From NCBI RefSeq assembly GCF_016839145.1, contig NZ_CP069303.1:3224001-3288000 (forward strand): a DNA stretch of 64,000 bases, read 5' to 3'. This stretch comes from Shinella sp. PSBB067. Its GTDB lineage: Bacteria; Pseudomonadota; Alphaproteobacteria; Rhizobiales; Rhizobiaceae. Each line of letters opens with the position of its first letter. Position 1 is the stretch's first letter. This document shows, piece after piece, positions 7,068 to 41,038 of this stretch. Under the pieces are notes generated by a model. The model searched no databases and was not told the DNA's origin. It saw only the letters and a program-made list of their open reading frames with translations. The translations under genes and the position numbers were made by a program.

Positions 7068-7106
7068 ACCCTAATGAACATACTCCGTGAGTCAACAGCT
7101 GATGAT
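7068..7106 (-). promoter_or_regulatory. Promoter and inverted-repeat site a, upstream of usp-nqr
   Basis: The repeat GTCAAC-AGCT-GATGAT lies at 7091-7106. Read on the minus strand, its promoter-proximal half overlaps a -35-like TTGACT (7090-7095), followed after 16 bases by a -10-like TAGGGT (7068-7073). The repeat ends 52 bases before the usp start. It is one of seven matches in the window to GTCAWC-N4-GWTGAY. Confidence 0.6.
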
Positions 7107-7177
7107 TGAGAGGGCGAAAATCCTTTTTCTTGTGCCTCACGATTGTGTCAGGGAGTCCGGCGGGCCAGCGTTCAGCC

Positions 7178-7366
7178 TTACCGTGTGCGGGGACGGTGGG
7201 CCGCAGGGTCGTTCTGAGGCGTGATTTCATTCGGGGCTGTGTTTTCCCCTTCCGGCGCGGATCTGGTCTCGTCTGTCTTTTTCAGGGCGCGGCTTGGAGA
7301 GAGTTCGTGCTGTTGCATCCGGCGTTTCTTTCGGACCTCCACGGTGAACGGTGTTGTTTGCTTCAT
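7178..7366 (-). CDS. Small basic hypothetical protein
   Basis: This 62-residue ORF begins MKQTTPFTVEVRKKRRMQQH and is rich in charged and polar residues with no membrane segment. I do not recognise a family. Support comes from a GGAGG sequence 12 bases before the ATG at 7366 and from its position 22 bases downstream of hdeD in the same direction. It could be a small regulator or simply a chance ORF. Confidence 0.4.
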   Translation of the reverse strand: MKQTTPFTVEVRKKRRMQQHELSPSRALKKTDETRSAPEGENTAPNEITPQNDPAAHRPRTR

Positions 7367-7388
7367 TGTCGTTTCCAACCTCCGGTTC

Positions 7389-7976
7389 TTATTCGTGATT
7401 GCGGTCGATCCTGAGGGACCGTCGCAGCGCGAGCGCCAATGCGCTCAGGGCACAGCCGGTCACCATGACGTCGATCGCCAGCAGTGCGCCGATGATCCAC
7501 AAACTGTTGACCGGCCAGCCCGCAAGGATGACAAGTGCAACAAGCACCGTCGCGGCGCCGGCCGCCGCGAGCCATAGCCAACCGGAAGCCGGGCGGATCG
7601 CCAGACCGGCGGCAGTCCTGACAATGCCTGCGACGAGCATGCTGAGAGCCATCAGTAGTGTCAGGAAAGTGGATGCCAGGACCGGGTTCCAGAATGTCAT
7701 CACACCGGCCGCGACATAAAGCACACCGACAACGAGCAAACCGACAGTTTGGCCCCATCGCTTCATCTGAAATGCGAAGACGATATGCGCCGCACCCGCC
7801 AGTAGCATCGTGACACCGACAAAGAGGACGGAAACGACCGTGGCCAGCAACAGGTTGGAGAGGGCGACAAGAGCTATCAACACGAGCACGATGCCGGCGA
7901 CCAGCAGCCATCGCCATCGCGATCGCAACAGTTGCAGGTCGGCGGCGTCGAGGCTTGCGGTGTAATTGAATATCAT
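7389..7976 (-). CDS. HdeD family (DUF308) membrane protein
   Basis: This 195-residue protein has six predicted membrane helices in the repeated DUF308 pattern and the family string GWPVNSLWIIGALLAIDV near the C-terminus. HdeD proteins are linked to acid and stationary-phase resistance in enterobacteria; the exact activity is unknown. The N-terminal LDAADLQLLRSRWRWLLVAGI helps to diagnose the frameshift in the second hdeD copy at 20051. It has its own intergenic space upstream. Confidence 0.88.
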   Translation of the reverse strand: MIFNYTASLDAADLQLLRSRWRWLLVAGIVLVLIALVALSNLLLATVVSVLFVGVTMLLAGAAHIVFAFQMKRWGQTVGLLVVGVLYVAAGVMTFWNPVLASTFLTLLMALSMLVAGIVRTAAGLAIRPASGWLWLAAAGAATVLVALVILAGWPVNSLWIIGALLAIDVMVTGCALSALALALRRSLRIDRNHE

Positions 7977-8024
7977 AAGTATTCTCCTGCGATAGTTGCG
8001 TGAAGAAAGCTGCTTCGCGTCGTG

Positions 8025-9143
8025 TCAGTTTCCGCCGACGATCTTGCCGGCAAGGACAAACGGGCTGGAAAGGACCGCGCCAGCCGAATTGAATACAAAC
8101 GCTCCGGCTTGCCTGAGATTTCGGGGGTCGCTCGTTCCATCCCGGCCCGAAAGCTTCGGATAGTAGGCAGCGAGACCGACGAAACGATTGTGGCGGAAGC
8201 TGTCTGAGGCCTCGATATCCGATATATCGATCACCTGCACATTCGCCCTGCGCGCCGCCTCCTCGATTTTCGGATCCGTCACGTCAATCCTGCCCAGGCG
8301 CTGACGTTCTGTGGATAGAAATTCCGAGACCTTCAGCGCCCTGTCATCCTTGGAAACAAGGATTGTCATCGGCGGGTTCAGTGTCCCGATCGTCGCAAGC
8401 TGTGCCTGGAACACGTCGACATCGATATCGGGCGCCGCAAGCACGACCTGCAGTCGACGGATCGCCGCGTCCTTGCCGGTAAGCCGCAGTTGGCGCACGG
8501 CTTCCGTCGTCAGCCATCCCCCCATGCTGTGGCCGACGAGCGTGATGGGACCCTGGGTCTGTTTGCGCGCCAGGGTGCTGAGCAGATCCGCCAACTGGTC
8601 CCGCGAGAACGTCACCGCGTCCTTGTCGGCGACGTAGCCGCTCAAAGCGCCTTCGGACGGCCAGGCAAACAGGATCGGGGCGGCATCGACGCCGGCGTCA
8701 GCTGTCATCTGGGCTATGCGATACACGGCCTCGGTGAAATTGGTGTTGTAGCCATGCACGAACACGCCGACACTCGGCGGTTTGCCGTTGTGTTTACGCG
8801 TGACTTCCGCCTCGAATGTCGCCGCGTCGAGAATGTGCTGGTCGACGGTGACAAAATCCGTCTTCGGGTTCGGCTTCGATTTCGGCCATTCGACATTGCC
8901 CGTCTTGTGACCTGGCGGGATGGAGACCCTGTAGCGGATATAGCTAACCTCGCGGCTACGACCCGACGTGTAGATACCGTTCTCATCACGCTTGCGCGTG
9001 GTCGCCACATAAACCGTCGTGAGCTTGGCCCCCGGAACGGCTTCGGCCCTCTGGGCGAGCAGTTCCGGGCCGGGGCGGCCGGCACAGGCTGCAAGCAGGC
9101 TTGTGAGAAGAAGTAGCGTAAGGCGTAGACTGAATTCACGCAT
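8025..9143 (-). CDS. Lipoprotein alpha/beta hydrolase (DUF900)
   Basis: This 372-residue protein begins MREFSLRLTLLLLTSLLAACAG, a lipoprotein signal peptide with an LAAC lipobox, so the mature protein is probably membrane-anchored. The hydrolase fold is shown by VGVFVHGYNTNF (oxyanion HG motif) and the nucleophile elbow GHSMGG. These features match the DUF900 esterase-like family. The substrate is unknown. I chose the ATG at 9143 because it places the signal peptide at the very N-terminus; a longer ORF reaches 9206 but adds no recognisable sequence. Confidence 0.85.
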   Translation of the reverse strand: MREFSLRLTLLLLTSLLAACAGRPGPELLAQRAEAVPGAKLTTVYVATTRKRDENGIYTSGRSREVSYIRYRVSIPPGHKTGNVEWPKSKPNPKTDFVTVDQHILDAATFEAEVTRKHNGKPPSVGVFVHGYNTNFTEAVYRIAQMTADAGVDAAPILFAWPSEGALSGYVADKDAVTFSRDQLADLLSTLARKQTQGPITLVGHSMGGWLTTEAVRQLRLTGKDAAIRRLQVVLAAPDIDVDVFQAQLATIGTLNPPMTILVSKDDRALKVSEFLSTERQRLGRIDVTDPKIEEAARRANVQVIDISDIEASDSFRHNRFVGLAAYYPKLSGRDGTSDPRNLRQAGAFVFNSAGAVLSSPFVLAGKIVGGN

Positions 9144-10038: not shown

Positions 10039-11214
10039 TCAGCCTCCCGAGATTCTCAAGGCGTCAGTGGCGATCACCTGCTCCTCATCGGTCGGGATGA
10101 CAAGGACGGTAAGACGACTGGCAGGACTGCTGATGACGGGACCGCTCCCGGCGTTCGCTCCAGGATCGAGATCAATGCCGAGCCACATCAGCCGGGTGCA
10201 GATATCAGCTCTGATCGTCGGCTGATGCTCGCCGATCCCGGCGGTGAATACGAGAGTGTCGAGGCCGCCCAGCGTCGAGGCAAGCCGGGCAATCTCACCG
10301 GCGACCCTGAAGGTGAACAGCTCGATTGCTTCCTTGGCTTGCTGCTCATCACTCTCCAGAAGCACGCGGCTGTCGGCGCTGATGCCGGAAGCGCCCAGCA
10401 GACCCGAACGGTGATAGAGGAGATCCTCGATTTCGCCAGGATCTCGCCCGGCCTTTAAGAGGTGTATGACCACGCCGGCGTCGAGCGCCCCGCAGCGCGT
10501 CGCCATCGGTACGCCGTCCAGCGTTGAGAAACCCATGCTGGTGTCGCGGCTGACGCAGTTGTGCATCGCGCAAAGACTGGCGCCGGAACCGAGATGGGCG
10601 ACGATGACCTTGCCCGCCGCCTGCTCCGGCCATTTGCTGATAAGCTGGTTGGCAATCGATCGATAAGAAAGGCCGTGGAAGCCATAGCGTTTGATACCCT
10701 CTTCGTAGAGCTGCCGCGGCAGGGCGAAGCGGCGGACGACGTCGGCATGCGAGCGGTGGAAAGCCGTGTCGAAGGAGGCGGTCTGCCTGATTTCTGGCCG
10801 AAGGCGCGCGATCGCCCGGACAAGGCGCAGCGCCTGGGGCTGATGAAGCGGCGCAAGCGGTATCAGCGCTTCCATCTGCGACATCGCCTGATCGTTGATG
10901 AGCACCGGTCCGTCAAACAGGTCACCGCCGTGCACAACGCGGTGGCCGATAGCGGCGATGCCGGATAAATCATAGTGCCAGGACAGCCGGTCGAACGCTT
11001 CGCGCAAGACCTCGTCCAGTTCTTCCTCCGCTTTGGCTTCCAGCTCAACATCGAAGCGATCCGGGCCTTCGGAAAGCTCGAAGCGCAACGGGGCCTTGCG
11101 GAAATCGATCATTCCCTTGCCGATTCGCGTGAGGCCACCGCCTTCAACGGCGAACAGGCCGATCTTGACCGTGGAGGAGCCGGCATTGAAGGTGACAAGC
11201 AGTTGCTGGCTCAT
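10039..11214 (-). CDS. ackA: Acetate kinase
   Basis: This 391-residue enzyme converts acetyl-phosphate and ADP to acetate and ATP. It shows the ASKHA-fold start TFNAGSSTVKIGLF, the HRVVHGG motif, the FDTAFH segment, the HLGSGASLCA phosphate loop and the FTAGIGEHQ region, all typical of AckA. Length is normal. The ATG overlaps the maoC-pta stop (ATGA), so Pta and AckA are made together. Phosphoketolase encoded at 37794 could supply acetyl-phosphate directly. Confidence 0.95.
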   Translation of the reverse strand: MSQQLLVTFNAGSSTVKIGLFAVEGGGLTRIGKGMIDFRKAPLRFELSEGPDRFDVELEAKAEEELDEVLREAFDRLSWHYDLSGIAAIGHRVVHGGDLFDGPVLINDQAMSQMEALIPLAPLHQPQALRLVRAIARLRPEIRQTASFDTAFHRSHADVVRRFALPRQLYEEGIKRYGFHGLSYRSIANQLISKWPEQAAGKVIVAHLGSGASLCAMHNCVSRDTSMGFSTLDGVPMATRCGALDAGVVIHLLKAGRDPGEIEDLLYHRSGLLGASGISADSRVLLESDEQQAKEAIELFTFRVAGEIARLASTLGGLDTLVFTAGIGEHQPTIRADICTRLMWLGIDLDPGANAGSGPVISSPASRLTVLVIPTDEEQVIATDALRISGG

Positions 11215-12623
11215 GAGATGGCCCCCGTTCCGGGTACCTGATTGCGGGCGACGAGCAGTCTTGCGAGCGTTGCCGAGGCGATGCGCGCCGAAAGCGGATC
11301 GGAGCGGCTGGTCAGCACGATCGGCACGCGCGCGCCGAGCACGATGCCGGCCGCGGTCGCCCCCGCGAAATAAATCAGTTGCTTGGCGAGCATGTTGCCA
11401 GCCTCAAGGTCCGGCACGAGCAGGATGTCGGCCTCGCCCGCGACGGGAGAGACAATGCCCTTCGTCTTCGCCGCATCGAGATCGATGGCATTGTCGAAGG
11501 CAAGCGGGCCATCGACACGTCCACCGATGATCTGGCCACGCGCCGCCATGACGGTCAGCGCCGCGGCGTCAAGGGTGGATGGCATCTTCGCGTTGACGGT
11601 CTCGACTGCTGCGAGCACCGCCACGCGCGGCTCTTTGACGCCAAGAGCTAGAAGAAGGTCGATAGCGTTCTGGCAGATGTCGCGTTTCTGGTCGAGCGTC
11701 GGCTGGATGTTGATCGCAGCGTCGGTGACGATCAGCGGCTTGCCATAGGCCGGGACGTCGAAGGCGAAGACGTGGCTGACGCGCCGCTCCGTTCTGAGAC
11801 CGGACCCGGTGGCGAGGACGGCGCCCAGAAGCTCGTCGGTATGCAGGCTGCCCTTGACCAGAACCGAAACCGTACCGCCGACCGCGAGTTCCACGGCGCG
11901 CGCGGCTGCCGCATGGCTGTGCGCAACGTCCTCGATCGCCATGTCGCCGAGATCGATCCCTGAGGCTTCGGCGGCTGCGCGAATCTTCGCCTCCGGCCCG
12001 ACCAGCAGCGGGTCGAACAGGCCCTGTTGGCGGACCTCGACCGCAGCCAGGATTGCTCCGGCGGAGCACGGGTGTACAATGGCGGCCCGAACCGGGGGGA
12101 GACTACGAGCTTCGGCAACAAAAGCCTCATATCGGCTTGCTCGCCCTGTATCCTGCAATGCGACGGAGGAGGGTGTTGCGGTCCATTCGACCGACTTGTC
12201 GGGCGCGATCACCATGGCCTTACCGGTCAGGACAAGTTCCGCTTTCTGATTTGCGCAGATCGTCTCCAGTGCAACAGTGCGATTGTCCGGGTTTTTCTGC
12301 ACCACCCGCACGGTTGCCGTGATCGTGTCGCCGGCGGCGACCGGCTTCACGAAACGGAAATCCTGTCCCAGATAGATCGTCCCTGGCCCCGGAAGCCTTG
12401 TGCCGATCACCAGAGAGACCAGCGCGCCTGTCCAAAGCCCGTTGGCAACGATATCGTTGAAGAACGTCGTTGCCTCCGCTGCCCCGTCACCAACTGCCGG
12501 CCTTTTGCCGAGCATCGCTGCCAGCAGATCGATGTCGGTATCACCTGCCACCCGTGTGAGGCTTGCGGTATCGCCGACCTGTAAATCGGCGAAGGTATGA
12601 TTTGTCAGTAATTTTTCCGCCAT
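11211..12623 (-). CDS. MaoC-like enoyl-CoA hydratase fused to phosphate acetyltransferase
   Basis: This 470-residue protein joins two enzymes. Residues 1 to about 145 form a MaoC/hot-dog hydratase domain (FADLQVGDTASLTR at the start, FFNDIVANGLWTGAL in the core). The rest is a phosphotransacetylase domain, with VHPCSAGAILAAVE and NMLAKQLIYFAGATAAGIVLGA. Such fusions are annotated as bifunctional enoyl-CoA hydratase/phosphate acetyltransferase. The hydratase half could provide (R)-3-hydroxyacyl-CoA to the adjacent PhaC; the Pta half interconverts acetyl-phosphate and acetyl-CoA. I chose the ATG at 12623, which gives the normal hydratase N-terminus MAEKLLTNHTF. It lies seven bases after the phaC stop. 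Confidence 0.9.
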   Translation of the reverse strand: MAEKLLTNHTFADLQVGDTASLTRVAGDTDIDLLAAMLGKRPAVGDGAAEATTFFNDIVANGLWTGALVSLVIGTRLPGPGTIYLGQDFRFVKPVAAGDTITATVRVVQKNPDNRTVALETICANQKAELVLTGKAMVIAPDKSVEWTATPSSVALQDTGRASRYEAFVAEARSLPPVRAAIVHPCSAGAILAAVEVRQQGLFDPLLVGPEAKIRAAAEASGIDLGDMAIEDVAHSHAAAARAVELAVGGTVSVLVKGSLHTDELLGAVLATGSGLRTERRVSHVFAFDVPAYGKPLIVTDAAINIQPTLDQKRDICQNAIDLLLALGVKEPRVAVLAAVETVNAKMPSTLDAAALTVMAARGQIIGGRVDGPLAFDNAIDLDAAKTKGIVSPVAGEADILLVPDLEAGNMLAKQLIYFAGATAAGIVLGARVPIVLTSRSDPLSARIASATLARLLVARNQVPGTGAIS

Positions 12624-12630
12624 CGCACTC

Positions 12631-14412
12631 TCACTTCTGGAACACGTAGGCACCGGGCGCTTCTGCAATGGCAGGAAAACCCCTCTCGGCGGCACCAAGC
12701 TGAGGCGGGGCTACACGAACCTTGCCTGAATGTGTAGCCAGCCACGGCAGCCACGCCTCCCACCAGGAACCGCCCCTCTCCTCTGCCTCTGCTGCCCATT
12801 CGTCGGGTCCGAGGCAGATGTCGGCTGCCAGCCTGGTCGCGATGCGATAGCGGCGACCGCGATGGCCCGGCTCGCTGACAATGCCTGCGTTGTGCCCGCC
12901 GCTGGCGAGAACGAAGGTAACATCGGTATCGGCTAGCTGGTGGATCTTGTAGACCGATCTCCATGGCGCGACATGATCGCGTTCCGTTCCCACGACGAAC
13001 ATCGGCACGCGGATATTCTGCAGCGCCGCCGGACGGCCATCGATGATGAAGCGGCCGGATGCAAGCTCGTTGTCCAGGTAGAGACGCTGGAGGTATTCGG
13101 CATGCATGCGGTAAGGCATGCGCGTGGAATCGGCATTCCAGGCCATAAGGTCGTTCATCGGCGTGCGTTCGCCCATGAGATAGTCGTGGACCAGTCGCGA
13201 CCAGACGAGGTCATTGCTCTTCAGGATTTGAAAGGCGCCGGCCATCTGGCTCGCCGACAGATAGCCCCGATCCCACATCATGCTTTCAAGAAAATGCATC
13301 TGGCTCGGATCGATGAACAGCGCCAGTTCGCCGGGTTCGGAAAAATCCGTCTGGGCTGCGAAAAGGGTGAGCGTTGCCAGCCTCCCGTCGCCGGCGCGCC
13401 CCATCGCAGCCGCCGCCATCGCGAGAAGCGTACCGCCTAGACAATAGCCAGTGGCGTGGATCTTGCTGTCGGGAACGATGGCGGCGATCACGTCGAGCGC
13501 GGCCATGACACCCAAACGGCGATAATCGTCCAGCGTCAGATCGCGATCGTCTGCCCCAGGGTTTCGCCAGGAAACGGCAAACACCGTGTGCCCCTGCCCG
13601 ACCAGATAGCGTACCAGGGAGTTCTCCGGCGACAGGTCAAGGATGTAGTATTTCATGATCCAGGCCGGCACGATCAGCACCGGCTCCGCCACCACGGTGT
13701 TGGTCGTGGGGCTGTACTGGATCAGTTCGATCAGATGGTTTCGGAAGATGACCTTGCCGGGAGTGATCGCGACATCCCGGCCCGGTGCGAACCCTTCCGC
13801 ACCGACGGGCGGGCGGCCGCCTGCAAGCCTGTTCACATCTTCGAACCAGTTCTGGAACCCCGAGAGGAAGTTTGCCCCTCCAGTGGTGATGGTTTTGTTG
13901 ATCACCTCGGGATTAGTGAACGGGTTGTTGGAGGGCGAGAACATGTCGAGCACTTGCCGCGCGGCGAAGGAGACCACGTCCTCGTGGTGAGGAGCGACGC
14001 CCGGCACCTCCCGCGTCGCATTGTGCCACCACTGCTGGGCGAGCAGGAACGCCTGGGCATAGGCCGCAAAGGGGAGTCCCTTCCACGCCTCCCCGGTGAA
14101 GCGGTAGTCGCCCGGCAAGGACTCGATGCAGGATGGAGTGTCGTCACCGAGACTGGCGGCGCAGAGATAGCCCGACAGCCGGGCGCTTTTCCGCACCCCC
14201 TTGTCGATAAGCTCCAGACGCTTCCCCGGCGCCGAGGCCAGATGAATCGACCAGTCGAACAATGCTAGCGCCAGCGCCGCGGGCGAAAGCCCGCCGGTGA
14301 TCCGCGCGCTCCAGGCTTCGCGCATCCGATCAATGGCGCGGAAGGCCTCCGTGCCGAGAGTATCGTGAGGGACATCTGCCGCCCTCATTCCTGACCTGCT
14401 CAAATCATTCAT
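12631..14412 (-). CDS. phaC: Class I poly(3-hydroxyalkanoate) synthase
   Basis: This 593-residue enzyme polymerises (R)-3-hydroxyacyl-CoA into PHA granules. It has the PhaC N-terminal domain, then an alpha/beta hydrolase core with the nucleophile C324 in the box GYCLGG, a D-containing ERDHVAPW segment and the catalytic His in SGGHNAGIVSEPG. Length fits class I. The start codon shares a base with the stop of the upstream tetR (TAATG), so the two are coupled. It differs clearly in its N-terminal part from the second synthase at 46447. Confidence 0.95.
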   Translation of the reverse strand: MNDLSRSGMRAADVPHDTLGTEAFRAIDRMREAWSARITGGLSPAALALALFDWSIHLASAPGKRLELIDKGVRKSARLSGYLCAASLGDDTPSCIESLPGDYRFTGEAWKGLPFAAYAQAFLLAQQWWHNATREVPGVAPHHEDVVSFAARQVLDMFSPSNNPFTNPEVINKTITTGGANFLSGFQNWFEDVNRLAGGRPPVGAEGFAPGRDVAITPGKVIFRNHLIELIQYSPTTNTVVAEPVLIVPAWIMKYYILDLSPENSLVRYLVGQGHTVFAVSWRNPGADDRDLTLDDYRRLGVMAALDVIAAIVPDSKIHATGYCLGGTLLAMAAAAMGRAGDGRLATLTLFAAQTDFSEPGELALFIDPSQMHFLESMMWDRGYLSASQMAGAFQILKSNDLVWSRLVHDYLMGERTPMNDLMAWNADSTRMPYRMHAEYLQRLYLDNELASGRFIIDGRPAALQNIRVPMFVVGTERDHVAPWRSVYKIHQLADTDVTFVLASGGHNAGIVSEPGHRGRRYRIATRLAADICLGPDEWAAEAEERGGSWWEAWLPWLATHSGKVRVAPPQLGAAERGFPAIAEAPGAYVFQK

Positions 14413-15026
14413 TATGTCTCCCGACTGATCGGCACGGTGGCCCTCATGGTCTGGCATTCCTTGTCTTCGTTCATGATGAACTCGACAATCTGGGAGACCA
14501 GAGCCATCAGTTCACGATCACTTCCGCTCTTCTGGAGGGCTGGTGTGCCGATGACGTCACGAAGAATACTGACCCCGGCCAGAAACGCGGCGACCATTGA
14601 CGCGCGCCGCTCGGACATGAGCGGGCATTTGGAAGCGAACGGCTTGACGAACCCGTCGTCGATGAGCTCACGAAAAACACGCGATGCCTCTGGACTGGAA
14701 AAAGATCGCGCGAGGATGTCAAAAGGCCGGATTTCGTTGGCGCCCTTCTCAGCGAGGATGTCTTGCGCGAGCGTCATATGCAACTCGCTCGCCTCGCCGA
14801 CGAGCCAGGCCTCCGGTTGAAGTATCGCCTTGACTGCTGCCCGGAACAGCTCTTCCTTCGAACCGAAGGAACGATGAACATAGGCCATGTCGACACCGAC
14901 ATCGGCGGCAATGTCTCGCAACCCGGTTTCCTCATAGGAGTGGGTGGAGAAGCGAAGTATCGCGGCTTTCAGGATGCGCTCACGGGTGGTGTCTTCCGGG
15001 ACGGGCCGGATCATTCGGTTGGGCAT
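14412..15026 (-). CDS. TetR-family regulator upstream of phaC
   Basis: This 204-residue protein has an N-terminal helix-turn-helix (about residues 14-58: RERILKAAILRFSTHSYEE...LRDIAADVGVDMAYVHRSFGSKEEL) typical of TetR/AcrR proteins, and an unassigned ligand domain. It is the first gene of the tetR-phaC-maoC/pta-ackA-fabI run. A GGAG lies upstream of the ATG at 15026, and a 16-bp inverted repeat lies 49 bases further up. It could regulate its own operon and might recognise the repeat, but nothing in the sequence proves that. Confidence 0.9.
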   Translation of the reverse strand: MPNRMIRPVPEDTTRERILKAAILRFSTHSYEETGLRDIAADVGVDMAYVHRSFGSKEELFRAAVKAILQPEAWLVGEASELHMTLAQDILAEKGANEIRPFDILARSFSSPEASRVFRELIDDGFVKPFASKCPLMSERRASMVAAFLAGVSILRDVIGTPALQKSGSDRELMALVSQIVEFIMNEDKECQTMRATVPISRET

Positions 15027-15051: not shown

Positions 15052-15091
15052 AGTCTATCGGCGCAACGAAAGGCAGTCAACAGCCGATGAC
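15052..15091 (-). promoter_or_regulatory. Promoter and inverted-repeat site b, upstream of tetR-phaC
   Basis: The repeat GTCAAC-AGCC-GATGAC lies at 15076-15091. On the minus strand its right half overlaps a -35-like TTGACT (15075-15080). A -10-like TAGACT (15052-15057) follows after 17 bases. The predicted transcript would start some 20 bases before the tetR ATG. The arrangement copies site a. Confidence 0.62.
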
Positions 15092-20662: not shown

Positions 20663-20917
20663 ATGGAGACGGGAATGCACGACCGCATTAGGCCGGGCCT
20701 CGCCCTCCCGACCGACAGCCGCTCACGCTCGCGTGTCGGCGGCGCCTTGCTGGTCCTCGTCGTCGTGTCGGTATCGATCTGGACGATGCTGGCGATCTGG
20801 CATCAGGTTGAGCCACCAGTCACCTGGCCATCCCTCGCCGCCGCGGCGGCGGCGCTCGCAATCCTACGCCCGAACCATCCGCTCAAGACAAATCGGCGTC
20901 CACCGTTGACATTTTAG
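20663..20917 (+). CDS. Small two-helix membrane protein, unknown function
   Basis: This 84-residue ORF starts at the ATG at 20663 after a GGGAGG sequence. It contains two hydrophobic stretches, VGGALLVLVVVSVSIWTML and a short Ala-rich one (WPSLAAAAAALAIL), and ends in a basic tail. No family is recognised. It follows the frameshifted hdeD by 34 bases and may belong to the same transcript. Confidence 0.55.
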   Translation: METGMHDRIRPGLALPTDSRSRSRVGGALLVLVVVSVSIWTMLAIWHQVEPPVTWPSLAAAAAALAILRPNHPLKTNRRPPLTF

Positions 20918-25200: not shown

Positions 25201-25203
25201 TCC

Positions 25204-26316: not shown

Positions 26317-26401
26317 GTGAGGCCGCGGTGATCCGCGCAGCCTTATCCAGGTAATCGATCGAAATACAGCAGCGATTTATTCGAACGGGAGGTTTGTCGT
26401 C

Positions 26402-27442
26402 ATGCAAGGACTTATGAAAGCTGCAATTGTTCATGAATTCGGAAAGCCACTGTTGATCGAAAACGTTCCGATACCCGTACCCGGCCCGGGCGAACTGCTG
26501 GTGAAAGTGGCCGCCTGTGGCGTGTGCCACACCGATCTGCATGCCGCCTCCGGCGACTGGCCGGTCAAGCCATCCCTGCCCTTCATTCCCGGCCATGAGG
26601 TAGCAGGCACCGTCGCGGCACTCGGTCCAGGTGTCACGGACTTTGTAATCGGCGATGCCGTCGGCATCGCATGGCTCCATGACGCCTGCATGCGGTGCGA
26701 ACATTGCGAAACCGGCTGGGAGACGCTTTGCAAGCATCAACACAATACGGGCTACAGCTGCGATGGAGGCTTCGCGGAATACGCGATTGCCAATGCTGCA
26801 TTCGCCGCAAGACTGCCTGACGACGTTGATTTCGCGGCGGTCGCGCCTATTCTCTGCGCCGGGGTCACGACTTACAAAGGGCTCAAGGAAACCGAAGCGC
26901 GACCCGGGCAATGGGTCGCAATCTCCGGCATCGGCGGCCTGGGCCAGGTAGCCATCCAATACGCCAAAGCAATGGGACTGAAGGTCGTTGCACTGGATTT
27001 GGCGTCTGAGAAGCTCACATTGGCCAGAAGAACCGGAGCCGATCTGGCGCTTGACGCGCGGTCCCCGGACGCCATCGCCGAGGCCCTCGAAGCAACAGGC
27101 GGCGGAGCACACGGAGTGCTCGTCACCGCGGTATCGCCTCCGGCGTTCTCGCAGGCGCTCCAGCTCGTTCGACGAAAAGGCACCGTTGCTTTGGTCGGAT
27201 TGCCGCCAGGCGAATTCGCGACCCCTATTTTCGATGTCGTCCTGAAGCGCATAACCGTGCGGGGCTCAATCGTCGGCACGCGCCGGGATCTTGACGAGGC
27301 CATCGCCTTTTTTGCCGAAGGCAAAATCAAGGCTCAGGTCACGCCGGCGCCGCTTGAGGACATCAACCGGATATTTCAGGAGCTGAAAGCCGGCCGCGTC
27401 GACGGCCGTGTGGTTCTCGACATGACAGGCAAGGCAGCCTGA
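26402..27442 (+). CDS. adhP: Zinc-dependent alcohol dehydrogenase, AdhP type
   Basis: This 346-residue medium-chain dehydrogenase has the catalytic Zn region CGVCHTDLHAASGDWP, the GHEVAG motif, the structural-zinc cysteines CMRCEHCETGWETLC and the nucleotide motif GIGGLGQVAIQYAKAMG. AdhP enzymes interconvert ethanol or propanol and aldehydes with NAD(H). In this cluster the likely use is NADH reoxidation. A GGGAGG nine bases before the ATG at 26402 supports that start; a second ATG at 26414 would give the commoner N-terminus MKAAIVHEFG. Confidence 0.92.
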   Translation: MQGLMKAAIVHEFGKPLLIENVPIPVPGPGELLVKVAACGVCHTDLHAASGDWPVKPSLPFIPGHEVAGTVAALGPGVTDFVIGDAVGIAWLHDACMRCEHCETGWETLCKHQHNTGYSCDGGFAEYAIANAAFAARLPDDVDFAAVAPILCAGVTTYKGLKETEARPGQWVAISGIGGLGQVAIQYAKAMGLKVVALDLASEKLTLARRTGADLALDARSPDAIAEALEATGGGAHGVLVTAVSPPAFSQALQLVRRKGTVALVGLPPGEFATPIFDVVLKRITVRGSIVGTRRDLDEAIAFFAEGKIKAQVTPAPLEDINRIFQELKAGRVDGRVVLDMTGKAA

Positions 27443-27479
27443 TCAGTTTGGCGCTGCGGTTTTTGAAAAGGGGTTAGAC

Positions 27480-28130
27480 ATGATCACATCCGACATCATG
27501 ACGCGGGACGTTGCCACGATCAGTGTGGATGCTCATGTGCGTCACGCTGTTTCAGTCATGCTGGAGCGTGGCGTCAGCGGTCTGCCGGTGACGGATAGCG
27601 ACGGAAAGCTCGTTGGGATCATTACGGAAGGCGATCTGATGTCCCGCAAGGAGATCGGAAGGTCTTTGCTCGATCGGCAGGACCATCCGATGACCGATGA
27701 GAACGATCTTAAAAATTACATTCATTGCAACAGCTGGCGCGTTGGTGATGTCATGTCCCCGGAAGTTGTGACAGTAGCTGATACCACCTCCTTGGCGACG
27801 GTGACCGAGATGATGCTGAGCCGCAACATCAAGCGTATTCCGGTAACGTCCGACCGTGCGGTTATCGGGATCGTCAGCCGCCGCGACCTTTTAAAGGCGA
27901 CCTCCTTTTCGGGTATCGAACACATTGCGCGTGGAGACGAAGGTATCAGGCTTGCAGCTTCGGCGCGTATCCGCAATGACCTCGGATTTGATCCGGAAAG
28001 GCTGAAGATCGACGTGCACGGCGGGACGGTCGCGGTCACCGGAGTACATTTGACAGATCTTCAACTCCGGGCCGTGAAATGTGTCATCGAGGGCATACCG
28101 GGTGCGAGCTTCTCCGGCAAACCGACTTGA
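27480..28130 (+). CDS. CBS-pair and BON domain protein
   Basis: This 216-residue protein has two CBS motifs (about residues 7-60 and 92-140: DIMTRDVATISVDAHVRHAV and DVMSPEVVTVADTTSLATV) followed by a short BON-like domain (about 150-212). CBS pairs sense adenine nucleotides or energy state. BON domains bind membranes or other proteins. It lies 37 bases after adhP, so co-transcription is likely. The target is unknown, but such proteins commonly accompany Usp genes in anoxic-survival loci. Confidence 0.88.
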   Translation: MITSDIMTRDVATISVDAHVRHAVSVMLERGVSGLPVTDSDGKLVGIITEGDLMSRKEIGRSLLDRQDHPMTDENDLKNYIHCNSWRVGDVMSPEVVTVADTTSLATVTEMMLSRNIKRIPVTSDRAVIGIVSRRDLLKATSFSGIEHIARGDEGIRLAASARIRNDLGFDPERLKIDVHGGTVAVTGVHLTDLQLRAVKCVIEGIPGASFSGKPT

Positions 28131-28343: not shown

Positions 28344-28384
28344 GTCATCATCTGTTGACTCAGATCAATTCCCTGGCCTAGAAA
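28344..28384 (+). promoter_or_regulatory. arc operon promoter: repeat site c, FNR/FixK-like box, -35 and -10
   Basis: Three elements overlap. The inverted repeat GTCATC-ATCT-GTTGAC spans 28344-28359. TTGAC-TCAG-ATCAA at 28355-28368 fits the FNR/FixK/ANR pattern TTGAY-N4-RTCAA. A -35-like TTGACT (28355-28360) is followed after 18 bases by TAGAAA (28379-28384). The repeat ends 132 bases before the arcD-like start. ANR-type control of arginine deiminase operons is established in pseudomonads, so oxygen control here is reasonable. Confidence 0.6.
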
Positions 28385-28491: not shown

Positions 28492-29925
28492 ATGAGCACT
28501 GTTTCTGAAGCACCGGAGGAACGACGTTTTCAGTTCCCAACCGCATTCACCATCCTCTTTGGCTTGATCGTTCTAGTCGCCGCACTCACATGGATCATAC
28601 CGGCCGGGCAGTACGACCGTGTTCAGAATGCGGCCCTGAACAAGCAAGTGCCCGTCGCCGGGACCTATGCGGTCGCTGAGCCGGCGCCGCAGGGGATAGT
28701 CGACATCATCATGGCGCCAATCCGCGGGTTCTACGACCCCGCAGCCGGCACCGCAAACGCCATCGATGTCGCTCTTTTCGTCCTGGTGATTGGCGGGTTC
28801 ATCGGGGTCGTCACCTCGACAGGCGCGATAAATGCCGGAATCGAGCGCGCTATGGCCAAGCTCAAGGGACGGGAAAAGTGGATGATCCCGTTCCTGATGG
28901 CGCTGTTTGCCTTCGGCGGCACCACCTATGGAATGGCCGAAGAAACGCTCGCTTTCTATATGCTGCTGATCCCGATTATGATCGCCGCGCGATATGACGC
29001 GGTTACCGCCGTCGCCATCATCCTCCTTGGAGCAGGCGTTGGTGTCTTGGGGTCCACGGTCAACGCATTTGCCACCGTTATCGCCTCTGACGCGGCCGGC
29101 GTGCCGTTCACGCAAGGGCTGGTTTTGCGCGTCGTCATTCTCGGGCTGAGCTGGCTCGCCTGCGTTGCCTACGTCATGCGGTATGCGGAACGGGTTCGGC
29201 TCGATCCGAGCAAATCGCTCGTCTACGACATGAAAGCCGACAACGAGAAGCTTTTCCTCAGCGCTCATCACGAGGGGACGATCGACTTCACCCTGGTACA
29301 CAAGGTCGTGCTTGCGGTCTTCGGCATCACCTTCGTGGTGATGATCTGGGGTGTGCTCAAGGGCGGCTGGTGGATGGGCGAGATGAGCGGTCTCTTCCTC
29401 GCCTCCGCCATTGTCATAGGCGTCATTGCGCGAACGGGTGAGAAGAACTTCACGGATGCCTTCGTTAACGGAGCACGCGACCTTCTCGGTGTTGCCCTGA
29501 TCATAGGTCTGGCGCGCGGCATCGTTGTCATCATGGATGAGGGCAAGATTACCGACACCATACTGCATTGGGCCGAAGGTTCGGTCGCAGGCCTCGGCAA
29601 GGTCGCCTTTATCAACGTGATGTACTGGCTTCAGATCCTGCTGTCGTTCTTCGTGCCGTCGTCGTCGGGTCTTGCAGTCCTGTCGATGCCGATCATGGCC
29701 CCGGTCGCCGATTTTGCCGGCGTGGGCCGCGATCTGGTGGTCACTGCCTATCAGTCGGCGAATGGCATCGTGAATCTCATTAATCCGACCTTCGCCGTGG
29801 TCATGGGTGCGCTCGCCATAGGTCGCATCCCATACGAACGGTGGCTGCGCTTCATGTGGCCGCTTCTCGTGATCCTCACCGTCATCATCATGGCGAGCCT
29901 CAGCATCGCCGCCATCATCGTCTGA
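28492..29925 (+). CDS. YfcC-family transporter, probable arginine/ornithine exchanger
   Basis: This 477-residue membrane protein has about twelve hydrophobic segments and belongs to the YfcC/C4-dicarboxylate anaerobic carrier family, with [20 protein letters not shown], the GMAEET loop and [13 protein letters not shown]. In many arc operons a member of this family does the ArcD job of exchanging arginine for ornithine, and the neighbours here are arcA, arcB and arcC. An ATG after GGGAGGGGGT starts it. Function is inferred from family and operon; other amino acids or dicarboxylates are possible. Confidence 0.88.
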
Positions 29926-29936
29926 AGGAGATTGTC

Positions 29937-31163
29937 ATGCCCCACGCCTACGGAGTCCATTCCGAGGTCGGCAAGCTTCGGCGCGTTCTGGTCCATCGAC
30001 CTGGGGCAGCGCTTGCCCGGCTCACCCCGTCGAATTGCCACGAACTGCTCTTCGACGACGTCATCTGGGTCAAGCAGGCCCGCGTCGAGCATCTGACCTT
30101 CGTGGACGCCATGCGCCATCGCGGCGTCGAGGTCGTGTTTCTGCGCGAGATGCTGGTAGAAACGCTACAGATTCCCGAGGCTCGCCGATGGCTTCTTGAA
30201 CGGCGGGTCAATGACGACACGGTTGGCGTCGGCTTCGCCGATGATCTCAGGGCGCATCTGATGGAGATCGAGGCGGACGCCCTTTCCCTGATCCTGCTGG
30301 GCGGACTGAGCAAGACGGAGTTACCGATCAAAAGCGCCGGCCTTCTCGCCGAAACGCTGCGGCCGGAGGATTTTGTCCTGCCGCCGCTTCCCAATCACCT
30401 CTTTACCCGTGACACGACCTGCTGGATCTATGGCGGCGTCACGCTCAATCCGATGCGCTGGAACGCGCGCAAGCTCGAGACCGTCAACATCGCCGCCATC
30501 TATCGCTTCCACCCGGATTTCCGCGACATGGGCTTCCCGGTCTGGTGGGGCGATCCCGACAAGGACCACGGCCTTGCCACTCTCGAGGGGGGCGACGTCA
30601 TGCCGATCGGCAACGGAACGGTTCTTGTGGGCATGGGCGAGCGGACGACACCACAGGCCGTCGGTCAGCTCGCGCGGTCGCTGTTCGCACAGGGCGGCGC
30701 GGAAAGAGTGATCGCCTGCAAACTGCCTATCGAGCGCGCCTCCATGCACCTCGACACCGTCTTCAGCTTCTGCGACCGCGATCTCGTGACGCTGTTTGCG
30801 GATGTCGCCCACAAGATCGAGCCCTATTCCATTCGTCCGGGCGAGCGCGAAGGCACGATCGATGTACGCAAGGAAGAGCGGCCGCTCGTAGAGGTCGCGG
30901 CCGAGGTGCTGGGGCTGAAGCAGTTGCGCGTGGTCGAGACGGGCGGCGATGCCTATGTCGCTGAACGCGAGCAATGGGATGACGGCAACAACGTCGTGGC
31001 GCTCGAGCCTGGCGTCGTCGTCGCTTACGACCGCAACACCTACACCAACACCCAACTGCGCAAGGCAGGCGTAGAGGTCATCACCGTGCCGGGCGCCGAA
31101 CTCGGCCGCGGCAGGGGTGGCGGTCATTGCATGACGTGCCCCCTCATCCGGGATCCGGTTTAA
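29937..31163 (+). CDS. arcA: Arginine deiminase
   Basis: This 408-residue enzyme hydrolyses arginine to citrulline and ammonia. It has the N-terminal [18 protein letters not shown], the [13 protein letters not shown] segment, the HLDTVFSF catalytic His region and the C-terminal [10 protein letters not shown] with the catalytic Cys, all as in ArcA. I chose the ATG at 29937, preceded by AAGGAG; a longer in-frame ORF reaches into the transporter gene and has no support. It is 11 bases after the transporter stop. Confidence 0.96.
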
Positions 31164-31175
31164 AGGAGGTCTATC

Positions 31176-32177
31176 ATGCCCGTTAACCTGAGAGGTCGCA
31201 GTGTCCTGAAGCTGCTCGATTTCACGCCGGACGAGATCCGTTTCCTGCTCAAACTGTCAGCTTCGCTCAAGCAGGCGAAATATGGCGGCTACGAGGAGCA
31301 ACGCCTGAAAGGCAAGAACGTCGCGCTGATCTTCGAGAAGGATTCGACGCGCACACGCACGGGTTTCGAGGTGGCCGCCTATGACCAGGGCGCCCACGTT
31401 ACCTATCTCGGGCCAACCGGCACCCAGATCGGCAAGAAGGAGTCGATGAAGGATACCGCCCGCGTTCTCGGGCGGATGTATGACGGCATCGAGTATCGCG
31501 GCTTCGGACAGGAACAGGCGGAAACCTTGGCGGCCTATGCCGGCGTTCCGGTCTACAACGGACTGACCGACGAGTTCCATCCGACGCAGATTCTCGCCGA
31601 TTTCCTGACCATGCGGGAATACACGCGCAAGCACCTGTCCCAGGTAAGTTTCGCCTTCCTCGGTGACGCCGGAAACAACATGGGCAACTCGCTGCTGGCA
31701 GGCGCCGCGCAGATCGGCATGGATGTGCGCCTCGGCGCGCCGAAAGCCTGCTGGCCTGAGGACCATTTGGTGCGTCAGTGCCAGGAGATCGCAGCCAGGA
31801 CCGGTGCGAAGATCGCCCTGACCGAAGATCCTTACGAGGCCGTCAACGGCTGCGATTTCGTCTACACCGATGTGTGGGTGTCAATGGGGGAGCCGGACTC
31901 GGTCTGGAAGGAACGCATTGAACTGCTCACACCCTATCGTGTCACCGCTGGCATCATGGCGGCGACGGGCAATCCGCATGCGAAATTCATGCACTGCCTG
32001 CCCGCGTTCCACAATCGCGAGACCGAGGTCGGCGAGAAGATCTTCCAGCAATACGGCATCGACAGCATGGAAGTGACCGAAGAGGTCTTCGAGTCCGAAG
32101 CGTCCATCGTCTTCGACCAGGCGGAAAACCGAATGCACACGATCAAGGCCCTGCTGGTCGCAACCTTGGGGTCGTGA
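31176..32177 (+). CDS. arcB: Catabolic ornithine carbamoyltransferase
   Basis: This 333-residue enzyme converts citrulline and phosphate to ornithine and carbamoyl phosphate in the deiminase pathway. The carbamoyl-phosphate motif [12 protein letters not shown], the FHPTQILAD segment and the ornithine-binding [14 protein letters not shown] are all present. An AAAGGAGG lies eight bases before the ATG. The catabolic role is inferred from its place between arcA and arcC. Confidence 0.96.
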
Positions 32178-32178
32178 C

Positions 32179-33105
32179 ATGAGGGTCGTGATAGCACTGG
32201 GCGGCAATGCGCTCCTCAAGCGCGGCGAGCCAATGACGGCCGATGCGCAACGCACCAACGTTCGCAAGGCGGCCGCAGCGATGGCCGATCTGGCGCGCGA
32301 CCATGACATCGTGGTCGCCCATGGAAACGGACCACAGGTCGGTCTCCTCGCCTTACAGGCGGCGGCCTACAAAGACGTCGACCCCTATCCGCTCGATGTC
32401 CTGGGTGCAGAGAGCGTCGGCATGATCGGCTATCTGGTCGAGCAGGAGCTGACCAATGCGATGCCTGCGGGTTCAAGGATCGCGACACTGCTGACCCAGA
32501 TAGAGGTGGACCGGGACGATCCCGCCTTCGCTCGCGCGGAAAAGCCGATAGGTCCGGTCTACACGCAGAACGAGGCGCTAAAGGCGAAAGAGGCACATGG
32601 CTGGCCTGTGGTAGAAGAAGCGCAGGGCCGCTGGCGCCGGGTCGTCCCGTCACCACTACCTCAGCATATTACCCAGATCGAGACGATCAGGCTCCTTGTC
32701 GAGGCTGGCGTCACTGTCATCTGCGCCGGCGGTGGAGGTATCCCGGTCATGCGCGAAGCCGATGGGACGCTTCGGGGACTGGAAGCGGTGATCGACAAGG
32801 ACAGAGCAGCCGGGCTTCTCGCCAAGGCGCTCGGGGCCGACGCTTTCCTGATGCTGACCGACGTGGACGCTGTTTATGAGGGGTGGGGAACGGTCGATAG
32901 GCGGCCGATCCGCAAAGTAACGCCTGCCGAGTTGACCAGCGACGTGTTCGCGGCCGGGTCCATGCGACCGAAAGTCGAAGCGGCGTGCGATTTTGCGAAC
33001 GCGGGCGGGATTGCTGGAATAGGCCGGCTTGAAGATGCGCGCGGGATTCTGGAAGGGCGGCAAGGCACGTTGGTGACGCTTCAGGCGATCAATCAAGCGA
33101 GCTGA
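32179..33105 (+). CDS. arcC: Carbamate kinase
   Basis: This 308-residue enzyme makes ATP from carbamoyl phosphate and ADP, the energy-yielding step of the arginine deiminase pathway. It begins MRVVIALGGNALLKRGEPM, has AHGNGPQVGLL, GAGGGGIPV-like CAGGGGIPVM and the DKDRAAGLLAKALGAD motif typical of carbamate kinases. It starts one base after the arcB stop. It is the last recognised arc gene. Confidence 0.95.
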   Translation: MRVVIALGGNALLKRGEPMTADAQRTNVRKAAAAMADLARDHDIVVAHGNGPQVGLLALQAAAYKDVDPYPLDVLGAESVGMIGYLVEQELTNAMPAGSRIATLLTQIEVDRDDPAFARAEKPIGPVYTQNEALKAKEAHGWPVVEEAQGRWRRVVPSPLPQHITQIETIRLLVEAGVTVICAGGGGIPVMREADGTLRGLEAVIDKDRAAGLLAKALGADAFLMLTDVDAVYEGWGTVDRRPIRKVTPAELTSDVFAAGSMRPKVEAACDFANAGGIAGIGRLEDARGILEGRQGTLVTLQAINQAS

Positions 33106-37793: not shown

Positions 37794-40139
37794 TTAAGGC
37801 CACGTCCAGTCCCGGATTTCGGGCATATCTTCTCCATGTTCATACACATACGCCTTGTGCAGGACGAGCTTCTCCTGGAGTGCTGCAACGATCTCCGCTC
37901 CCTTCTCCTTCAGGACGGGAAGACGCTCGATCGCCTCGATGGCCAGATGAAACCGGTCCAACTCGTTGAGGACGGCCATATCGAAGGGCGTCGTCGTGGT
38001 CCCCTCTTCGATAAAGCCGCGCACATGGAAATTTGGATGGTTGGCGCGTTTGTAGACAAGGCGATGGATAAGGTAAGAATAGCCGTGATACGCAAAGACC
38101 ACCGGTCGGTCGCGTGTGAAGATGCTGTCGAACTTCTCGTTAGAAATACCATGCGGGTGGTGTTGCGGCGATTGCAGCGCCATCAGGTCCACGACGTTCA
38201 CGACTCGGATGCGCAGATGTGGCAGAGCCTGCCGCAAGAGGTCGACAGCGGCGAGCGTTTCCATGGTCGGCACGTCGCCGGCGCAGGCCATCACGATGTC
38301 TGGCTCCAATCCGTCCTCGGTTCCAGCCCAGTCCCATATTCCAAGGCCCGCCTCGCAGTGCTGCTCGGCCTCCGTCATGGTCAACCATTGAGGCGCGGGC
38401 TGTTTGCCAGCGACAATGACATTCACCCGATCCCACGTCTTGAGGCAATGATCGCCGACCCACAACAGGGTATTCGCATCCGGGGGCAGATAGACGCGGA
38501 CGATGTCGGCGCTTTTGTTTGCAACGAGATCGATGAAGCCGGGATCCTGATGGCTGAACCCGTTATGATCCTGCCGCCATACATGAGAAGTCAGAAGATA
38601 GTTTAGCGAGGAGATCGGCTTGCGCCATTCCAGTTCGCGCGAAACCTTCAGCCATTTGGCGTGCTGGCTGAACATGGAGTCCACAATGTGGATGAACGCC
38701 TCGTAGCAAGAGAAGAACCCATGGCGGCCAGTGAGCAGGTAGCCTTCAAGCCATCCCTGGCACAGATGCTCGGACAGTACTTCCATAACGCGCCCGTCGG
38801 GCGACAGATGATCGTCAGTTTCGAGCGTTTCGGCCATCCAGACCCGGTCCGTCGCTTCGAACACGCTGCCGAGCCGGTTGGAAGCCGTCTCGTCCGGCCC
38901 GAACACACGGAAGTTCCGCTCGTCATCGTTGAGCCGTAGGACGTCGCGTAGATAATCGCCGAGAACTTTCGTCGCCTGCGCTTCCGCCGCGCCGGGCCGG
39001 CCGACCTCCACGGCATAGCTGCGGAAGTCGGGTGTACGCAGTTCCTTGCGCAGAAGGCCGCCGTTGGCATGCGGATTGGCGCCCATGCGCCGCGGACCCT
39101 TGGGTGCCAAGGCCTTGAGCTCTGCCTTCAGTGCGCCCCTTTCATCGAACAAGTCCTCCGGGCCGTAGCTCCGCAGCCATTCCTCGAGGATAGCGCGGTG
39201 TCCTTCGTCCTCGCGGCAATTCGCGACCGGCACTTGATGAGAGCGCCAGTGGTTCTCCACCATCTTGCCGTCCACGACCTTAGGTCCTGTCCAGCCCTTG
39301 GGGCTGCGCAGAATGATCATAGGCCACTGCGGGCGCACCGATGACGAGGATGCCTTCCCTCGGATCGCAGCGAGCCGATCGAAGACAGTGTCGAACACTC
39401 CGGCCATCTGCTGGTGCATTTCAGCGGGCTCGCTACCCTCGACAAAGAACGGCTCATAGCCGTAGCCGATGAAAAGATGCTGCAACTCGTCGTCGGAAAG
39501 CCGCGCAAGAACGGTGGGGTTGGCGATCTTGTAGCCGTTGAGGTGCAGGATGGGCAGAACCATTCCGTCACGGGCCGGATTGACAAATTTGTTAGAATGC
39601 CATGCGGCCGCGAGCGGTCCGGTTTCTGCCTCGCCGTCGCCTACCACGCAAGCCACCACCAAATCGGGATTGTCTAGCGCGGCGCCGTAGGCATGAACCA
39701 GCGCATAACCCAGCTCACCGCCTTCATGGATCGAGCCTGGCGTCTCCGGCGCAACGTGGCTCGGAACGCCGCCTGGAAATGAGAATTGCTTGAACAGCCG
39801 TCTCATTCCGGGCTCATCATCACCTATCTCGGGATAGGTTTCGGAATAGACGCCTTCCAGCCAGGTATTCGCAACCATGCCGGGGCCACCGTGCCCAGGC
39901 CCGCAGACATAGAGGATGTCCGCGTCGCGCTCGGTGATGATCCGATTCAAATGCGCATAGATGAAGTTGAGCCCCGGGGTCGTTCCCCAATGCCCAAGGA
40001 GGCGCGGTTTGACATGCTCCGGTTTCAGCGGTTCGCGGAGTAACGGATTGTCCATCAGATAAATCTGGCCAACGGATAAATAATTGGCCGCACGCCAGTA
40101 GCGATCGATTAGCGATAATTTTCTGGTATCAAGCGACAT
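37794..40139 (-). CDS. xfp: Phosphoketolase (xylulose-5-P/fructose-6-P)
   Basis: This 781-residue thiamine-diphosphate enzyme splits xylulose-5-phosphate or fructose-6-phosphate with phosphate to give acetyl-phosphate. It has [29 protein letters not shown] and the cofactor motif [19 protein letters not shown], all characteristic, and a normal length. The ATG at 40139 ([15 protein letters not shown]) is preferred over a longer ORF. Its product feeds AckA for ATP or Pta for acetyl-CoA, linking sugar breakdown to both fermentation and PHA. The gene is monocistronic with repeat site d upstream. Confidence 0.96.
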
Positions 40140-40255
40140 AATGTTCCTTGTTGCATCCACGTTGCTAAGCGCGAGATCGTGTTGGGACTTAAGAACTGGA
40201 AGCGATCTGCGCAAATATCACTGGCGATACAACTCGCGAGTGAACGACTGACCGC

Positions 40256-40295
40256 ACGGTATATTTCTAACACCCAATGGTCAACGACTGATGAC
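40256..40295 (-). promoter_or_regulatory. Promoter and inverted-repeat site d, upstream of xfp
   Basis: GTCAAC-GACT-GATGAC lies at 40280-40295. On the minus strand its right half overlaps a -35-like TTGACC (40279-40284). After 17 bases comes TACCGT (40256-40261); TATACC at 15 bases is an alternative -10. The repeat ends 140 bases before the xfp start. Confidence 0.55.
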
Positions 40296-40634
40296 GATAG
40301 CTGATGCTGCGGGTATGTCACCTGATATTTGCATCGCGCTCCGGCGTCGAAATCAACAGGATCGGTTGTTCGGAGGCGGTTAGTCGGTCCCTCCTTCGCA
40401 CCAATGCCCCTTAGGTTTCATTCCCTGAGAGCAGCCTTCCCGGTCGCCAGAAAGAGGCTGGAAATCATCTCGGCGGCGGCGCTGATGAACAGAGGTCCCC
40501 GCTAGCCTGAGAAATAGCCGAAGACCCATTGGCGCGGAGCATCGATAACTCGTGATAAACTGATGCAGGGCCGCTGAAACTATGGTGATTTAACCCGACG
40601 GACGTCTTCAGTTTCCACGATTCTGACGATCTGA
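40296..40634. other. Intergenic stretch without recognisable genes
   Basis: Nothing here reads as a gene. It separates the phosphoketolase promoter from the transposase remnant and may contain debris from the insertion. Confidence 0.35.
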
Positions 40635-40849
40635 ATGTCCTCCTTTGCTGATTTCGTTTTCCCCCTCAAGGCAAACAGCAAGGTCACCTATGCCCTCTCG
40701 CACCGCGCTACCGCCAGCGAGATCTCGTCGAGCGCTTTTCCAATCGCATCAAAAGCTTTGGACGAATCGCAACCAAGCACGACAGGCACGCACAAAACCG
40801 CCTCGCCGCGATCAAGCTCGTAGGAGGTCGTAGCTGGTGTCAAACGTAA
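40635..40849 (+). pseudogene. IS5-family transposase remnant (C-terminal part)
   Basis: In the frame from 40706 the DNA reads RYRQRDLVERFSNRIKSFGR, followed by IATKHDRHAQNRLAAIKLV and a stop at 40847-40849. This strongly resembles the C-terminal YxxRxxVERFFNxIKxFRRIATRYDK region of IS5/IS427-type transposases, including the conserved Glu of the DDE triad. Just upstream, in another frame (from 40635), FPLKANSKVTYALSHR looks like the preceding part of the same protein. At least one frameshift and loss of the N-terminal portion show it is dead. No terminal inverted repeats were identified. Confidence 0.75.
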
Positions 40850-41000
40850 CGGGTCGACGGATTACCCTGTTAACTCCGCCGAAATGTTCGTTGATCCGCC
40901 TCGATCCGCGATCCCGGATCGACGGCGCCCGATGCGCAAGCGGTCATTGTTTTGAACGCTATTGACAAGCCGAACCCGATTTACATATGGTTCGCGCACT

Positions 41001-41038
41001 GTCATCAGCTGATGATTGAGTCGTCATCTACCGATGAT
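41001..41038. promoter_or_regulatory. Double inverted-repeat sites e and f upstream of the phasin-PHA cluster
   Basis: GTCATC-AGCT-GATGAT (41001-41016) and GTCATC-TACC-GATGAT (41023-41038) start 22 bases apart, about two helical turns. Both match GTCAWC-N4-GWTGAY. A possible -35/-10 pair (TTGACA at 40962-40967, TATGGT at 40986-40991, 18-base spacer) lies just upstream. If that promoter is used, the repeats would sit in the early transcribed region, as in repression. The following 41039-41100 is AT-rich. Confidence 0.5.

Follow-up and report, generated by a model that had tools for sequence, protein, structure and literature searches.

A recurrent palindrome in a mobile metabolic island of Shinella as the probable operator of the island's own repressor, TetR1

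The 64,000-nucleotide stretch of Shinella sp. PSBB067 analysed here, called the window (NZ_CP069303.1, positions 3,224,001 to 3,288,000), carries a 34-kb gene cargo in whose promoter regions a 16-bp palindrome, GTCAWC-N4-GWTGAY, recurs. This palindrome is very probably the operator of TetR1, a putative autoregulated repressor encoded by the element itself, which would control a fermentation, storage-polymer and stress package as a unit. A preliminary description of the same DNA had read the repeat as the operator of a dimeric regulator, which it does resemble, and had placed a tetR gene among the targets. A site does stand at the tetR1 promoter, but the linkage and covariation described below make it very probable that tetR1 encodes the regulator itself. 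The proposed grouping of fermentation, polyhydroxyalkanoate (PHA) and stress genes in one regulon is supported and extends to arginine deiminase and exporter operons; that the regulon is local to a mobile element had not been recognised. Computation showed where the sites lie, that they are concentrated in the island and recur in relatives, and that they are linked to tetR1 and covary with its recognition helix.

Sites and their distribution

The seven places listed in the preliminary description were recovered at the same coordinates (10 strand-matches in all), whereas 100 dinucleotide shuffles of the window gave a mean of 0.09 and at most 2. As claimed there, the sites are intergenic, none of the seven lying within a Pfam-supported gene among the 50 window open reading frames (ORFs) scanned; that at 15076-15091 overlaps solely a TTG-start extension of tetR1, whose likely ATG is at 15026. 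One site had been said to begin on the last base of a stop codon: a TAG at 28342-28344 fits, but no listed ORF of at least 100 aa ends there.

The genome-wide scan that had been proposed finds the exact motif at 8 places in 5,774,137 bases (4 contigs), and 7 of them cluster within the cargo. The eighth (L022:6609; L numbers designate loci and stretches) lies about 100 bp past a MarR-family gene and was judged to be background; the closest TetR_N match is about 1.2 kb away, with the site on the 3' side of that match. When one mismatch is allowed, the genome yields 47 strand-matches, those outside the island being scattered. With two mismatches, the window count (32) is the number expected by chance (30.4), and therefore only the near-exact motif is informative. 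Within the family, 150 of 199 genomes, this one included, hold at least one exact match; the highest forward count, 8, belongs to the Shinella genome (next 5), and one other genome has 6 reverse matches.

The consensus of the operator across the clade is aGTCA[A/T]C-N4-G[A/T]TGACt, and the flanks beyond the palindrome carry little information in a matrix analysis. The matrix used for looser matching is not independent of the window, since some relatives carry the same DNA. Among the accepted sites the weakest is 41023 (score 18.5). Outside the window, a near-match with no assigned gene close to it (L021:5733-5748, window +69733) scores higher (18.8) and was not counted as a member; candidates at 34218, inside usp2 (10.2), and at -2022, before the window (8.5), were rejected.

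A spacing of 22 bp is common to the 41001/41023 and 20895/20917 pairs. Among 63 non-redundant sites, a partner matching at least 10 of 12 positions is found at 22 bp for 16 and at 23 bp for 5, any other spacing from 17 to 60 bp giving at most 3, with both members of each pair counted. Two sites two turns apart also suggested a sigma-54 activator, a candidate that was dropped: the single relaxed -24/-12 match in the 64 kb, at 4312, is off the cargo promoters.

Association of the operator with tetR1 homologues

TetR1 has an N-terminal TetR helix-turn-helix (PF00440, 39.8 bits against a threshold of 24). Its AlphaFold2 model is an all-helical TetR fold (predicted local distance difference test 84.8, predicted template modelling score 0.80), and its Foldseek matches are TetR proteins, the best and nearest solved structure being 2guh, an uncharacterised Rhodococcus protein (E 7e-7, 27% identity). 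This structural work gave a fold and no ligand. No NCBIfam equivalog cut-off is reached, the CecR model covering residues 14-96 only with 29.3 bits against a cut-off of 365. A cysteine redox switch was considered and rejected, as no cysteine is invariant, or nearly so, among 25 homologues.

The genome itself contains 25 detected TetR_N genes, and tetR1 is the only one with an exact site at its promoter. A search of genome contigs with TetR1 gave 13 loci, 53-100% identical, and in all 13 a site begins 62-73 bp before the tetR1 match, the loci holding 44 sites in 248 kb altogether; several are nearly identical to each other, and six closely match the island of the window (most genes at 87-100% identity or more), so that these are not independent. 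Among 397 genomes of the order, 24 matches (30-100% identical) occur in 23 genomes, and 18 of these loci, the own one included, have the site, always on the upstream side. A profile search of 385 genomes of the class gave 10 matches in 9 genomes, own included, and six of the nine further loci have a site, its first base being A or G. Plasmids contribute 28 records with a TetR1 match; 10 of the 12 examined have a site at 11 or more of 12 positions within 250 bp upstream, that of a Paraburkholderia protein (L133) matching 11/12, or 10/12 under another assumed start. The association thus reaches down to about 30% protein identity, and it persists at L108, L111 and L113, where no other island gene was found in the 20 kb examined.

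Rhizobium subbaraonis JC85 has three contigs (L065, L067, L069), each with a tetR1 copy and operator. The L065 copy has a frame break, yet its two listed operators are kept.

The site also covaries with the protein. For 57 aligned homologues (L095, the same gene as L064, left out), a site was defined as at least 11/12 positions within about 320 bp; 46 have one and 11 do not. The rows are related by descent and the counts ignore kinship. Residue 46, adjoining the recognition helix (47-54 in the model), is D in 44 and N in 2 of the 46 site-bearing proteins; in the 11 site-less ones it is T in 6, D in 3 and N in 2, Thr being confined to this group. Residue 51 is H in 38 of 46 proteins with a site versus 1 of 11 without.

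Promoter architecture and proposed mechanism

At tetR promoters, counting redundant rows, 29 of 30 have GTTGAC as the gene-proximal half of the palindrome, which could supply the TTGAC of a -35 box. Among 19 non-redundant tetR cases with enough sequence, TA follows at a 17-bp spacer in 9, other spacers from 12 to 22 giving at most 2 each. For four of the six window promoters (tetR, exporter, arcD and xfp), the best-scoring sigma-70-like candidate, with a score between 9 and 9.5, overlaps the operator. Of 2000 16-mers drawn at random from the window, 589 are overlapped by the top promoter, and 24 by one scoring at least 9, but this control is mostly coding DNA and hence rough, which weakens the comparison. 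As most sites lie on possible -35 boxes, repression is indicated, and the promoter overlaps together with the 22-bp pairs fit repression by one or two dimers.

In the mechanism that we propose, a TetR1 dimer would bind the palindrome and, 22 bp being two helical turns, two dimers would probably sit on one face of the DNA, where they might act cooperatively. With the operator on the -35 or between -35 and -10 at most promoters, and just past the start point at one, bound TetR1 would block RNA polymerase. Six promoters, its own included, would be repressed in this way, amounting to about 28 genes on the operon extents assumed in Table 1, and a ligand would release TetR1, so that the island is switched on together.

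Table 1. Predicted operators and gene groups of the window
Feature	Position	Strand	Remarks
Operator	7091..7106	-	Precedes usp1-DUF1269-nqrABCDEF; 52 bp from ATG at 7038; gene-proximal half GTTGAC can form part of a -35 (TTGACT)
Operator	15076..15091	-	Of tetR1-phaC1-pta-ackA; top-scoring promoter pairs TTGACT (15075-15080) with TAGACT at 17 bp
Degenerate partner operator	20895..20910	+	10/12 positions; 22 bp from 20917; its end gives the -35 TTGACA (20906-20911)
Operator	20917..20932	+	Precedes orf114-hlyD-rbbA-permease-adh-cbs; covers spacer and part of -10
Operator	28344..28359	+	Precedes arcDABC; overlapped by FNR/FixK-like box (28355-28368, 9/10)
Operator	40280..40295	-	Precedes xfp (perhaps also the P-type ATPase gene); kept in Kaistia island
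Operator, first of 22-bp pair	41001..41016	+	Precedes phasin-PHA operon; begins about 3 bp past predicted start point
Operator, second of 22-bp pair	41023..41038	+	Precedes phasin-PHA operon
usp1, DUF1269, nqrA to nqrF	178..7038	-	Probable operon; Pfam
phaC1, pta (fused to enoyl-CoA-hydratase-like part), ackA	10039..14457	-	Probable operon with tetR1
tetR1	14412..15026	-	204 aa, TetR_N and TetR_C_16; likely operator-binding repressor
orf114, hlyD, rbbA, permease, adh, CBS protein	21009..28130	+	Probable operon
arcD-like carrier, arcA, arcB, arcC	28492..33105	+	
xfp	37794..40214	-	Phosphoketolase
Phasin, reductase, thiolase, DUF3141, phaC2	41427..48189	+	Probable operon
TrbI, CagX, VirB8, TrbL, VirB4-like, ATPase, coupling protein, relaxase	49429..63322	-	Mobile part of element; Pfam

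Contrary evidence and alternative explanations

Several observations weigh against control by TetR1 as described. The site is missing at 6 of the 24 order loci (L083-L085, L089, L090, L093), at 3 of the 9 further class loci and at 2 of the 12 plasmid homologues, namely a Sphingopyxis (27%) and a Streptomyces (34%) protein. The covariation rule is imperfect: L119 has no site although its recognition helix is identical to that of L117, which has one, and two more site-less proteins have D46. At usp1 the top promoter (8.5) is off the operator, the second-best (8.0) overlapping it, and the top promoter of phasin (10) ends before the operators. Moreover, the island of L070 contains a Crp/Fnr-type gene (788-1585, Pfam) that adjoins exporter genes and is closely followed by a motif site at 715, and an ORF of equal size occupies the corresponding place in L068; perfect FNR boxes precede nqrA in Kaistia-type islands (L095:3038-3051 and L063:17352-17365). 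Other regulators therefore take part in some relatives, and oxygen control may join TetR control in the L095 and L063 islands.

In one alternative, the sites are bound by another regulator of the host or the element, such as tetR2, LysR or a Crp/Fnr protein, and tetR1 is just a target. The tetR2 and LysR genes are both in the island, as is a Crp/Fnr-type gene in that of L070, but the site tracks tetR1 homologues across genera, even where no other island gene turned up in the 20 kb examined, and covaries with the TetR1 helix, which leaves this explanation unlikely. As a binder, tetR2 was rejected, being found in just 6 of 33 loci (L058-L062, L065). A search of 40 kb of the Kaistia island turned up no tetR2 and no lysR gene, whole genomes not having been searched for them; LysR was set aside on this one stretch tested and, lying 33 kb from tetR1, its absence from other 20-kb stretches says little. 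Oxygen control of the FNR/FixK type as the source of the sites is very improbable. One FNR/FixK-like box does overlap the arcD operator, and the comparable low-oxygen-activated (lxa) locus of Burkholderia is reported to include an FNR gene. The motif is nevertheless unlike TTGAT-N4-ATCAA, no Crp/Fnr domain occurs among the 50 window ORFs scanned, and boxes of at least 9/10 are near chance in the 64 kb (3 against 0.75 expected, largest simulated count 3), a single one standing at a cargo promoter, beside the operator, which does not amount to an FNR regulon. The lack of FNR fit noted in the preliminary description is thus borne out.

If TetR1 is the binder, it could still be an activator, or act both ways, by touching RNA polymerase at the -35 in a class II-like manner. 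Several promoters do have the operator in contact with the -35, a position that activators also use, but the one at the exporter extends over the spacer and into the -10, the phasin operators follow the start point, and TetR proteins are mostly repressors, so that we hold activation to be quite unlikely. That the repeats arose by chance, or are a repeated DNA element devoid of regulatory role, has a negligible probability: the two-mismatch count does equal chance, but exact sites are far above it, the flanks carry little information, and recurrence upstream of divergent tetR1 homologues in effect refutes this idea. Repression by TetR1 remains the reading that we retain.

The element and related islands

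Pfam matches among the window ORFs place in the cargo, which extends to 48.2 kb, nqrA-F, usp, HdeD-like, DUF900, ackA, pta, phaC, tetR1, FUSC, HlyD, gltS and tetR2, followed by the HlyD-RbbA-permease exporter, adh, CBS, arcDABC, usp, P-type ATPase, xfp, phasin, reductase, thiolase, DUF3141 and a second phaC. After 48.2 kb come LysR, conjugation genes and relaxase, to 63.3 kb. A serine recombinase with Resolvase and Recombinase domains (L020:14890-16794) is located about 3 to 5 kb before the window. The element is on a 4.6-Mb contig, and conjugation genes, relaxase and integrase share one chromosomal segment, as in an integrative conjugative element, to which the 34-kb cargo thus looks to belong. 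The flanking stretches L020 and L021 contain no tRNA gene.

The exporter is of the RbbA type (1590 bits against an NCBIfam cut-off of 1050). The pta gene (11211-12698) is fused to a MaoC/enoyl-CoA-hydratase-like part and might link acyl-CoA, acyl phosphate and PHA. The phaC1 product (12631-14457) is below the NCBIfam cut-off for class I PHA synthases (506 versus 623 bits). A 23-codon ORF after GGAG (41103-41174), in the long leader that separates phasin from its operator pair, may be a leader peptide or nothing.

Gene content of relatives was established by tblastn of 38 window proteins against 33 loci. The recurrence of sites before the same genes, suggested earlier as a check, was found, with gaps. 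Sites precede usp1, tetR1 and the exporter in L058-L061, L062 having none at the exporter, and the usp1 site is kept in L058-L065. In the Kaistia island (L095; G437), sites precede usp1, tetR1/gltS, the exporter and arcD, a further one lies before xfp with a 22-bp pair 350 bp beyond, and all 7 exact places of the genome fall within 27 kb around tetR1. Phasin is preceded by a site in L068 and L070. Regulon membership differs between islands: in L069, two sites (8986, 9281) stand before a glycogen-phosphorylase-like gene. Island versions with operators are also carried by conjugative plasmids of Pseudorhizobium flavum and Agrobacterium pusense (L126, L127).

Beside more distant tetR1 homologues, HlyD-RbbA-permease genes are found at L098, L099 and L102-L106 and on plasmids (Shinella pShin-05, Xanthobacter pXAUT01, Agrobacterium pAt and two Paracoccus plasmids), with RbbA on a Geminicoccaceae plasmid. 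Other exporters in this position are an HlyD-RND pump (L107), an HlyD gene (L109) and MFS pumps (L108, L111); the non-exporter neighbours are a porin (L100) and DUF900 (L101). Because distant homologues often adjoin exporter genes, exporter control is a plausible older role, the metabolic island being a recruitment.

Significance and comparison with known systems

The analysis assigns to a previously unknown regulon a regulator and an operator, a pair predictable for most tetR1 homologues of the clade (46 of 57 examined), and suggests how genes for fermentation, storage polymer and stress could arrive on a mobile element already joined to their own switch. Exact sites being few in the genomes of the family, the TetR1-operator pair may serve as a fairly orthogonal switch. 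More tentatively, conjugative elements and plasmids might carry an anoxic-survival and carbon-storage programme among Hyphomicrobiales in the form of a self-contained one-repressor regulon, recruited from a mostly exporter-linked TetR clade. Zygotic induction could then take place in a TetR1-free host until TetR1 accumulates, because the cargo promoters look like ordinary sigma-70 promoters and the repressor arrives with them. We regard this scenario as possible rather than probable.

Literature searches among open-licence PubMed Central papers returned no paper on the TetR1 operator or the island. The nearest described gene block known to us is the lxa locus of Burkholderia cenocepacia, which, as later papers describe it, also gathers stress (Usp), metabolism and transport genes in one locus. 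Unlike the present island, it is reported to comprise about 50 genes with the FNR gene inside, and FNR-box-like motifs have been linked there to low-oxygen-induced genes.

Genes such as arcDABC and those for fermentation are typical FNR/FixK targets. FNR/FixK regulons share with this one a palindrome with a four-base centre, but their half-sites are TTGAT/ATCAA versus GTCAWC/GWTGAC here. In Escherichia coli, the TetR gene cecR lies beside an HlyD/ABC exporter operon, and tetR1 likewise adjoins HlyD and ABC exporter genes, whereas TetR1 misses the CecR cut-off and the exporter here is RbbA-type. Autoregulated TetR-family repressors encoded next to efflux genes, of the AcrR, EbrR, CgmR, NalC and MexL type, are similar in the TetR fold, a palindrome at their own promoter and exporter neighbours (HlyD-RbbA, RND or MFS, beside distant homologues), but in the present case the operator occurs at six promoters of a mobile metabolic island. 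The domains, fold and autoregulation of TetR1 are ordinary; its predicted regulon, borne by the element itself, is unusually broad.

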